Assembly (NCBI RefSeq): GCF_001592435.1
Contig: NZ_CP014750.1
Span: 1,054,001-1,118,000 of the forward strand
Origin: Thermococcus peptonophilus
GTDB taxonomy: Archaea > Methanobacteriota_B > Thermococci > Thermococcales > Thermococcaceae
DNA length: 64,000 nt
Direction: 5' to 3'
Made by a program: the position numbers and the translations under genes. Position 1 is the stretch's first letter, and each line of letters begins with the position of its first letter. Under the pieces are notes generated by a model, which was given only the letters and a program-made list of their open reading frames with translations, was not told where the DNA came from and did no database searches. Positions 31,053 through 33,008 of this stretch are shown piece by piece.

Positions 31053-31496
31053 TTACACCTCGTTCACACTTTGAATTATCCTGAGATGGGGCACTCTTTT
31101 GAAATCATCGTCAAAAGTAGCCAGTGTGGAAATTCCATAGAAGCTACATGTGGCGGCAATAAGGGCATCATTGGGCAGAAGGAGACTATCTTTGATGTAG
31201 TTTCTAGACTCTCTCACGATGTCAGAGTTCAAGTCGAGAATTTTGAAAAGTGAGAACAGCTCGAAAACCGGTTCCAGATCCAATTTAGAAAGATTCTCTG
31301 GACGTTTTTTCAGCTCATATGACTTCATTCCAGTATTGGCTTTTATGTAAAAGAAGAGAACTTCTGAGACCACAATTGGGTTTATAAAGCCTCTGATACT
31401 CCCGTTCTCTACAGATTGAATCAAAGCTTTTGCCTCTTGTATTCCACTTAGGTGGTAAATTAAAACGTTCGAATCAAAGAAGATGCTACCACTCAT
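31053..31496 (-). CDS. vapC: PIN-domain toxin (VapC-like)
   Basis: 147 aa PIN-fold RNase. Acidic residues are in place: FFDSNVLIYHL (first Asp), VVSEVLFF (Glu), LLPNDALIAATC (Asp) and LATFDDDF (last Asp). Starts inside the end of the antitoxin gene (11-base overlap). Expected to cleave RNA when its partner is lost. Confidence 0.9.
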   Translation of the reverse strand: MSGSIFFDSNVLIYHLSGIQEAKALIQSVENGSIRGFINPIVVSEVLFFYIKANTGMKSYELKKRPENLSKLDLEPVFELFSLFKILDLNSDIVRESRNYIKDSLLLPNDALIAATCSFYGISTLATFDDDFKRVPHLRIIQSVNEV

Positions 31497-31674
31497 CCTC
31501 TATCTCCTCGATGATTTTGTCAACTTCCTCTTTACCAAGCTTCACGATTCCAAAGGTCTTCTCGGATATTTTCTTGGGGATGAGCTTAACACTGACCTCG
31601 GTACCATCGGGTAAGTTGAGCTTTTTCTTGAGCTTGAGGACGCCGTTCTCGTAAACAGCCTCAACTACCTCCAT
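31486..31674 (-). CDS. vapB: AF2212-like (DUF104) antitoxin
   Basis: 62 aa. MEVVEAVYENGVLKLKKKLNLPDGTEVSVKLIP is the DUF104/AF2212-like antitoxin motif, followed by an acidic C-terminal helix (KEEVDKIIEEIEDEW) that would wrap the toxin. First gene of the vapB-vapC-permease unit; probably autoregulates. Confidence 0.88.
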   Translation of the reverse strand: MEVVEAVYENGVLKLKKKLNLPDGTEVSVKLIPKKISEKTFGIVKLGKEEVDKIIEEIEDEW

Positions 31675-31730: not shown

Positions 31731-31853
31731 TTTAAAATCTCCTCGCCCTTTCTTCTTCCATGTTCGGTGGTCGTTTTTGGCCTTGGTGAAGCCTATCTCT
31801 TCTGCACCGCCTTAGTCTGGAGTTTCCTTTCCACTGGAAACGGAGGTGTTTGA
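31731..31853 (+). promoter_or_regulatory. trpS promoter and leader with a possible switch
   Basis: TATA TTTAAAAT at 31731-31738 predicts transcription start near 31758-31762, giving a leader of about 95 bases. In it are a nine-codon ORF (31760-31789), CACCGCC at 31805-31811 and the ribosome binding site GGAGGTG at 31842-31848. CACCGCC can pair with GGAGGTG (one mismatch) or, through CACCG, with CGGTG inside the short ORF (31765-31769). GTTTCC (31822-31827) or TTTCC (31828-31832) can pair with GGAAAC at 31836. These pairings are my reading, not a computed fold. Confidence 0.5.
31760..31789 (+). CDS. Candidate Trp-rich leader peptide of trpS (MFGGRFWPW)
   Basis: ATG TTC GGT GGT CGT TTT TGG CCT TGG TGA encodes nine residues, two of them Trp. 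The ATG lies about 25 bases downstream of the TATA centre, so it would open the transcript as a leaderless ORF. It ends 64 bases before trpS and is in a different frame. A Trp-containing short ORF before the tryptophanyl-tRNA synthetase gene suggests sensing of charged tRNA-Trp. Too short for statistical support on its own. Confidence 0.4.
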   Translation: MFGGRFWPW

Positions 31854-33008
31854 ATGGACGACTTTAAGGTTACCCCCTGGGACGTTGAGGGAATGGTTGA
31901 CTACGACAGGCTGATAAAGGAGTTCGGGACGACGCCGCTGACGGACGATCTCCTGGAGAGAACGGCGAAGCTGACTAAGAGCGAACTCCCGATATTCTTC
32001 AGGAGGAGGTTCTTCTTCTCCCACAGGGACTACGACAAAATCCTCGACGACTACGAAAGCGGGAGGGGCTTCTTCCTCTACACCGGCAGAGGCCCGAGTG
32101 GCCCGATGCACATCGGCCACATCATTCCTTTCTTCGCGACCAAGTGGCTTCAGGAGAAGTTTGGGGTGAACCTCTACATCCAGATAACCGACGACGAGAA
32201 GTTCCTCTTCAAGGAGAAGCTGAGCTTTGAGGATACCAAGAGGTGGGCCTACGAGAACATCCTCGACATAATTGCTGTGGGCTTCGACCCTGACAAGACT
32301 TTCATCTTCCAGAACAGCGAGTTCACCAAGATCTACGAAATGGCCCTCCCGATAGCCAAGAAGATAAACTTCTCGATGGCGAGGGCAGTCTTCGGCTTCA
32401 ACGAGCAGAGCAAGATTGGAATGATATTCTACCCAGCAATACAAGCCGCTCCAACGTTCTTCGAGAAGAAGCGCTGTCTGATTCCTGCCGCCATAGACCA
32501 GGACCCCTACTGGAGGCTCCAGAGGGACTTCGCTGAAAGCTTAGGCTACTACAAGACTGCCGCCCTCCACTCCAAGTTCGTTCCGCCCTTAACGGGCCTC
32601 GAGGGCAAGATGAGCGCGAGCAAGCCCGAAACGGCCGTTTACCTCACCGACGATCCGGAAGAAGCTGGAAAGAAGATATGGAGGTTTGCCCTCACCGGCG
32701 GCCAGCCAACGCTCAAGGAGCAGCGGGAGAAGGGTGGAAACCCTGAGAAGTGTGTCGTCTTCAAGTGGCTTGAGATATTCTTCGAGGAGGACGACAAGAA
32801 GCTCATGGAGCGCTACCACGCCTGTAAGGCCGGAGAGCTGACCTGCGGCGAGTGCAAGCGCTACCTCATCAAGAAAGTCCAGGACTTCCTCAAGGAGCAC
32901 CAGAAGAAGAGGAAAGAGGCCGAGAAGAAGGTCGAGAAGTTCAAGTACACCGGTGAGCTGGCCCAGGAGCAGTGGGATAAGGCTATTCCTGAGCCGTTGA
33001 AAAACTAA
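31854..33008 (+). CDS. trpS: Tryptophanyl-tRNA synthetase
   Basis: Class I aminoacyl-tRNA synthetase (384 aa), archaeal/eukaryotic type. HIGH motif GPMHIGHIIP, KMSKS motif as KMSAS (LTGLEGKMSASKPE), and QITDDEKFLF and AAIDQDPYWRLQRD, typical of the archaeal enzyme. C-terminal part has CKAGELTCGECKRYL and a Lys/Glu-rich helix. GGAGGTG lies six bases before the ATG. The sequence just upstream (TTTCCACTGGAAACGGAGG) also matches the origin-box core. Confidence 0.97.
   Translation: MDDFKVTPWDVEGMVDYDRLIKEFGTTPLTDDLLERTAKLTKSELPIFFRRRFFFSHRDYDKILDDYESGRGFFLYTGRGPSGPMHIGHIIPFFATKWLQEKFGVNLYIQITDDEKFLFKEKLSFEDTKRWAYENILDIIAVGFDPDKTFIFQNSEFTKIYEMALPIAKKINFSMARAVFGFNEQSKIGMIFYPAIQAAPTFFEKKRCLIPAAIDQDPYWRLQRDFAESLGYYKTAALHSKFVPPLTGLEGKMSASKPETAVYLTDDPEEAGKKIWRFALTGGQPTLKEQREKGGNPEKCVVFKWLEIFFEEDDKKLMERYHACKAGELTCGECKRYLIKKVQDFLKEHQKKRKEAEKKVEKFKYTGELAQEQWDKAIPEPLKN

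Follow-up and report, generated by a model that had tools for sequence, protein, structure and literature searches.

What is the nine-codon reading frame that precedes the tryptophanyl-tRNA synthetase (TrpRS) gene of Thermococcus peptonophilus, and how might it act on that gene? In the window, the 64,000-nucleotide stretch of DNA analysed here from a genome of 1.9 Mb, trpS occupies positions 31854–33008 of the plus strand and encodes a protein of 384 amino acids (NCBIfam NF008924, tryptophan--tRNA ligase, 755 bits). A previous sequence-only reading proposed that ribosomes stalling at the Trp codons of this micro-ORF sense tRNA charging and change the pairing of the leader RNA. Our analysis partly supports that interpretation. 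On comparative evidence, the leader is likely to be a tRNA-Trp-sensing programmed +1 frameshift cassette, which would control TrpRS by fusion of the shifted frame to the enzyme or, as in the window, through ribosomes brought to the trpS start.

Anatomy and conservation of the micro-ORF

A TATA box, TTTAAAAT, was read directly in the window sequence at 31731–31738 (plus strand, as are all leader features below). The distance from its TTTAAA to the ATG of the micro-ORF is 29 nt; therefore, the predicted transcription start lies at or beside the ATG, and the transcript would be leaderless. A TATA–ATG distance of 29–30 nt and a pyrimidine preceding the ATG, the sequence-based marks of a candidate leaderless mRNA, are both present. 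Published start-site maps support this reading: the median distance from TATA box to transcription start is 23 bp in T. kodakarensis (PMC4247193), and leaderless genes of T. onnurineus start with ATG in 94.9% of cases and favour a pyrimidine at −1 (PMC5316973). The micro-ORF (31760–31789) reads ATG TTC GGT GGT CGT TTT TGG CCT TGG TGA and encodes MFGGRFWPW, with its ATG at 31760, Trp codon 7 at 31778–31780 and TGA at 31787–31789. A spacer of 64 nt (31790–31853) separates it from trpS. Within the spacer lie CACCGCC (31805–31811), previously proposed to pair with the Shine–Dalgarno (SD) sequence or with the micro-ORF; a short hairpin, TTTCC-ACT-GGAAA (31828–31840), just 5′ of the SD; and the trpS SD itself, GGAGGTG (31842–31848). 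All of these elements agree base for base with the earlier description. On the minus strand at 31053–31674, the window encodes a PIN-domain protein (PF01850) and an AF2212-like small protein (PF01954), probably a VapBC-type toxin–antitoxin pair, which is divergent from trpS and has the upstream region in common with it.

TrpRS was detected in 86 of 94 Thermococcaceae genomes, and the upstream DNA was readable in 83. All 83 carry an ATG micro-ORF of the form M-(x)-G-[GD]-[RCG]-[FL]-W, confirming the observation far beyond chance; the comparison of trpS upstream regions, suggested earlier as a check, recovered a short ORF with a Trp codon throughout the family. The micro-ORF has 9 codons in 77 genomes, 8 in three and 10 in three, and ends with TGA in 73, TAA in 7 and TAG in 3. 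The distance from TTTA[AT]A to the ATG is 29 or 30 nt in 75 of the 83, and for the remaining eight our script matched a second, nearer TTTAAA-like sequence. The description of a leaderless-type, translated-looking micro-ORF therefore holds across the family. Codons 3 (GGT), 4 (GGT or GAT), 5 (C/T/G-G-T/C), 6 (TTT or CTT) and 7 (TGG) are conserved, in one genome behind an extra codon, and codons 2, 8 and 9 vary. Two Trp codons among nine had been emphasized in the sequence-only reading. This is true of the window, and codon 7 is TGG in 83/83, but codon 9 is replaced in a minority of genomes by Ser, His, Asn, Asp, Ile, Phe, Leu or Arg, indicating that the second Trp is dispensable and that the pair of Trp codons is not a conserved feature. 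The invariance of codon 7 supports the proposal that trpS is controlled through a Trp codon of the micro-ORF that probably senses charged tRNA-Trp.

In searches of Thermococcaceae genomes, matches to the pattern ATGNNNGGTGRTNGYYTTTGG were essentially confined to trpS. A looser pattern (TATA box, ATG and GGTG-N5-YTT) matched trpS in 41 of 41 genomes and gave only scattered matches elsewhere, and neither search revealed a recurrent non-trpS locus with the same leader. A second, non-trpS-type sequence, ATGACRGGTGATGGYTTTTGG, was found in four Thermococcus genomes (G022:C1:1986506, G046:C125:1784, G051:C76:10078 and G053:C3:15211). The fixed TATA distance in Thermococcaceae would also be expected of an operator or promoter element that acts at the DNA level within the initially transcribed region, translation playing no part. 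However, the position of the stop is conserved while all three stop codons occur, other archaea carry the cassette behind an SD-led ATG at different promoter distances, and such an element would not account for the frame effects described below (the open +1 frame and the TGG–SD phase). We consider an operator extremely improbable.

RNA pairing and the frames of the spacer

In classical leader-peptide control, stalling at the Trp codon would alter RNA pairing and thereby expose or hide the trpS SD, with no frameshift. The conserved Trp codon and the leaderless start suit such a mechanism; in addition, CACCGCC pairs with the trpS SD in the predicted fold of the window, and local hairpins covering the SD are frequent in Thermococcus. 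However, the proposed pairings proved not to be conserved: in a set of 16 divergent Thermococcus leaders, CACCGCC:GGAGGTG and CGGTG:CACCG were each 76% paired, were broken at single pairs in up to 6–7 of the 16, and showed none of the compensatory changes that the sequence-only reading had named as support. We therefore rejected the anti-SD and anti-micro-ORF pairings as conserved elements, and the stalling-driven pairing switch built on them was not supported. RNAalifold detected no covarying helix in the leader alignment, and the fold energy of the window leader was no better than that of shuffled sequences. Mutually exclusive conserved pairings 3′ of the leader ORF, as expected of an attenuator, were not found, nor did the leader match a T-box or any other Rfam family up to E = 5. 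The TTTCC/GGAAA stem, likewise put forward earlier, does form a hairpin in most Thermococcus, but it is nearly invariant there and hence uninformative, and it is not evident in the printed leader sequences of other genera. Local structure sequestering the SD may help in Thermococcus; it is not the conserved principle. Classical control is further weakened by the replaceable second Trp, and a pairing switch leaves unexplained the GGTG-N5-YTT-TGG spacing, the open +1 frame and the start-less fused genes of relatives described below. These points lead us to +1 frameshifting at a hungry Trp codon, and we regard classical leader-peptide control as unlikely.

Within the micro-ORF of the window, an internal SD-like element, GGTGGT (31766–31771), precedes the predicted shift site TTT_TGG (31775–31780), GGTG being separated from the shift codon by 5 nt. 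Upon a shift, the P-site tRNA-Phe on TTT would re-pair with TTT at 31776–31778, and the next codon would be GGC (31779–31781). Past the shift, the +1 frame (31779–31853) reads GLGEAYLFCTALVWSFLSTGNGGV and closes at a TGA (31851–31853) that directly abuts the trpS ATG. After YTT_T, this frame is open across the spacer, over 50–77 nt, in 83/83 Thermococcaceae genomes, and its first stop lies at −3 to +14 nt from the trpS start in 82 of them. Frame 0 stops at −71 to −48 and frame +2 at −72 to −21 relative to the trpS start in the 83 genomes, although in many Thermococcus the +2 frame also ends at similar sites, a point against the frameshift reading. The −1 frame (TTG GCC...) was rejected as a candidate, being open for 10–12 codons in many Thermococcus and for one codon in others and never reaching trpS.

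The phase of the spacer is conserved as well. The trpS SD is in phase with the +1 frame (GGA GGT) in 78 of 83 genomes, and the TGG-to-SD distances in these 78 (46, 49, 52, 55, 58, 61 and 64 nt) are all 1 mod 3, indicating that insertions and deletions in the spacer mostly preserved the +1 phase. Dinucleotide shuffling gave a mean chance of an open +1 frame of 0.38 per spacer, and the product of the chances over 19 divergent representatives was approximately 1e-9, a value that ignores shared ancestry. When columns were shuffled in 46 spacers of the same length, 3.6 rows with a +1 stop were expected and 0 were observed; 12 of 500 shuffles were as low. The pN/pS ratio of the +1 spacer peptide was 1.01 (approximately 1 in the +1 and +2 frames, 0.72 in frame 0), and no protein-level selection on this peptide was thus found. 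This ratio is compatible with a mere ribosome path and gives no positive sign of translation. The argument for the +1 frame is therefore one of openness and phase, not of peptide conservation, and the frame seems to be kept open as a path for ribosomes rather than for its product.

The cassette and fused trpS genes in other archaea

Beyond the family, Korarchaeia and archaea of the Caldarchaeum, Geocrenenecus and Pelearchaeum types have the same cassette 5′ of trpS, the group names being those given in record titles. GG[T/G]G-N5-YTT-TGG, with GG[T/G]G at −9 to −6, is present with invariant spacing in 51 of 51 distinct cassettes, the invariance of YTT_TGG outside Thermococcaceae being partly by construction, as YTTTGG was the search key there; inside Thermococcaceae, no genome failed the YTT_TGG search. 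Despite this invariant core, codons 2, 5, 8 and 9 and the stop vary. The search for non-Thermococcaceae cassettes required a 0-frame stop within a limit of 12 codons; in those recovered, this stop is at most about 10 codons from the Trp codon. In those relatives whose sequence we read, an SD or a TATA box of its own accompanies the 0-frame ATG.

The conserved residues Gly-[Gly/Asp]-x-[Phe/Leu]-Trp could also be maintained as a peptide, so that M-x-G-[GD]-x-F-W would be an arrest peptide sensing free tryptophan in the manner of TnaC, a mode of sensing with precedent (PMC8429421). However, the constraint is on bases and not on residues: the third base of GGT and the YTT are fixed, and codon 5 spans R/C/G/L/F/Y/S/H/V/D. 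The peptide is only 7 residues long at the Trp, and the fused genes require a change of frame regardless. Like the DNA operator, an arrest peptide accounts for fewer facts, and we judge it very improbable.

The fusions are informative about the frameshift reading. Among 92 TrpRS loci analysed, the +1 frame continues straight into TrpRS in 23; in another 16, comprising Thermococcaceae and six others, it closes near the trpS start. Examples are L071, with ATG GGT GAA TAT CTT TGG CTC TAA and the +1 frame GSKNNGDFMVTPW, and L205, with ATG CAA GGT GGT TCA CTT TGG CGG TGA and GGEEEFKVTPW. In most fused relatives, GGTG also yields a GTG in the +1 frame, a possible start for TrpRS without a shift. Internal initiation at this GTG is the most serious rival explanation and, in some lineages, the main one: it would start TrpRS in the fused loci and the spacer ORF in Thermococcaceae, leaving the ATG micro-ORF incidental or a plain uORF. 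A +1-frame GTG is found in nearly all cassettes and is the sole start-like codon in several fused loci. Two genomes of the Methanodesulfokora clade argue against it. L196 (=L101) reads ATG GGG GAT CGT CTT TGG CAG CGT TAG, with GSVSPWEVTG in the +1 frame, and L212 reads ATG GGG GAT CGC CTT TGG AAG CGT TAG, with GSVSPWEVAG; the SD element of this clade, GGGGAT, creates no internal GTG. In both loci the TrpRS frame contains no ATG, GTG or TTG from the upstream in-frame stop to the conserved domain, so that, given ordinary start codons, TrpRS is obtainable only via a +1 shift. A distant GTG makes the case less strict in L197 of the same clade. Furthermore, every cassette collected has an in-frame ATG or GTG ahead of the Trp codon. 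The bases of YTT/TGG do not vary, even though a +1-frame Phe codon could equally be TTC. Internal GTG initiation thus appears decidedly unlikely as the general explanation. The product lies in the +1 frame in the fused lineages, obligatorily in L196 and L212, and in Thermococcaceae the +1 frame ends at the trpS start. Several fused Korarchaeia loci (L198–L202, L206 and L208) possess an in-frame ATG of their own as well. A second TrpRS-like protein, of 36–43% identity, was seen in Korarchaeia G094, G095, G408–G410, G412–G414, G416, G417 and G420 (including L221–L225), and no cassette was found upstream of those of its genes that were inspected.

On a 92-row TrpRS tree, the presence and absence of the cassette requires at least 8 changes, indicating repeated gain, loss or movement together with the gene. 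Most archaeal lineages sampled lack it. A scan of 57 loci from the Asgard phylum and from that of G110 gave no cassette, three further loci flagged there proving on reading to be something else, and another 40 loci, from Thermoproteota and the class to which the window belongs, yielded none of the same form. The TrpRS of Korarchaeia L050–L052 and L054–L058 is 76–79% identical to that of the window, unusually close across phyla, which suggests that trpS moved together with its leader between Korarchaeia and Thermococcaceae. Other conserved leader sequences were observed as well. Three loci of one family of the window's class (L226, L227 and L228, in G427, G426 and G428; family f2) have a different conserved leaderless-type micro-ORF 5′ of trpS, GTG ATC TTC TTG GGA TGG (MIFLGW.T..*), 29–30 nt past a TATA box; in each of them, an overlapping open frame with an ATG inside GGATGG extends 8 nt beyond the trpS start. 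This is possibly a decayed or an independent Trp-codon leader. In Desulfurococcales/Sulfolobales-type loci (L068, L070, L082 and L087), the trpS leader carries another short conserved near-start motif, e.g. GGTGGCTT..GTATTGTGGCT, which is not the cassette.

Proposed mechanism and relation to known systems

The anatomy, conservation, reading frames and missing start codons described above are direct observations, and from them we infer a shift of the ribosome. A ribosome would initiate at the ATG of the micro-ORF and, with YTT in the P site and TGG in the A site, the upstream GGTG(R) could pair with the anti-SD of 16S rRNA. GGTGRT matches the Thermococcus SD consensus GGDGRD (PMC4247193, PMC5316973), on which this anti-SD match relies; a search for the 16S 3′ end with a haloarchaeal-type pattern, which is ill-suited here, found nothing in G000. 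With plentiful Trp-tRNA, TGG would be read and translation would terminate after 8–10 codons, yielding little TrpRS. As the A-site codon is TGG, the signal would be a shortage of charged tRNA-Trp: the ribosome would stall on TGG, the P-site tRNA (Phe on TTT, Leu on CTT) would slip +1 onto TTT, and reading would resume with GGN. In many Korarchaeia and Caldarchaeum/Geocrenenecus-type archaea, the shifted frame would be TrpRS itself. In Thermococcaceae, the shifted ribosome would traverse the spacer, open any structure over the trpS SD and stop at the trpS start, and TrpRS would then be made by the arriving ribosome or from the opened site. Such termination–reinitiation coupling operates in archaea (PMC6728339). 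We consider it likely that this is an autoregulatory programmed +1 frameshift at a sense codon, by which a synthetase gene gauges the charging of its own tRNA through hungry-codon slippage, with fused and coupled designs in Thermococcaceae, Korarchaeia and Caldarchaeum/Geocrenenecus-type archaea.

The closest known design is that of prfB (RF2), whose consensus combines an SD-type stimulator with YTT_TRA_C (PMC3711429); CUU_U is highly conserved there, UUU_U occurs in a minority of species, and slippage is set by the slowness of A-site codon supply (PMC5009743). The trpS cassette resembles it in its short 0-frame ORF ending soon past the shift site, its SD-like stimulator upstream at a fixed short distance and its slippery P-site CUU or UUU followed by U (CUU being commoner and UUU rare in prfB), as well as in a slow A-site codon as the proposed sensor, a product in the +1 frame of the fused lineages and a presumed negative feedback on the protein that would relieve the stall. 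Unlike bacterial prfB, the cassette is archaeal, its slow codon is the sense codon TGG rather than a UGA/URA stop, it would sense charged tRNA-Trp, and its product is an aminoacyl-tRNA synthetase, not RF2. By our own reckoning, alignment to the anti-SD also places the archaeal SD a few nucleotides farther from the shift codon than in prfB, and in Thermococcaceae the shifted frame ends at the start codon of the enzyme without encoding it. Because the codon and the product differ, the cassette works like that of RF2 and is not a member of the prfB family. Bacterial attenuation of trp and synthetase genes by leader peptides likewise relies on a very short ORF in which the regulated amino acid is encoded, and on a stalled ribosome as the sensor; in contrast, in the trpS leader no terminator or conserved alternative pairing was found, a single Trp codon is essential, and the response would be a change of frame. 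T-box riboswitches also sense tRNA charging ahead of synthetase genes but do so by a structured tRNA-binding RNA, for which the leader gave no Rfam match. The fucA1 gene of Saccharolobus solfataricus is a cellular archaeal gene with programmed frameshifting (PMC8211752); it differs in shifting −1 on A_AAA_AAT, without conservation among relatives or a known signal.

In the open-licence literature searched, no frameshift or leader peptide was reported for an archaeal synthetase gene. A review of archaeal recoding from 2021 listed one demonstrated cellular frameshift, of the −1 type, and called the study of such events urgently needed (PMC8211752); archaeal predictions otherwise concern haloarchaeal viruses and magnesium chelatase. 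The large GeneTack survey, which covered 77 archaeal genomes, missed prfB shifts located no more than 50 nt from the start (PMC3711429) and would have missed a trpS shift likewise. If our interpretation is correct, trpS would provide a conserved cellular +1 frameshift in an essential gene of a genetically tractable archaeal genus, and the logic of RF2 would have arisen a second time, around a sense codon. Archaea would have a means of sensing an amino acid that serves the same kind of purpose as T-boxes and attenuators, and the apparent lack of a start codon in some archaeal trpS genes would be explained. The trpS leader would also be a convenient system in which to study translation-based regulation and coupling in hyperthermophiles.
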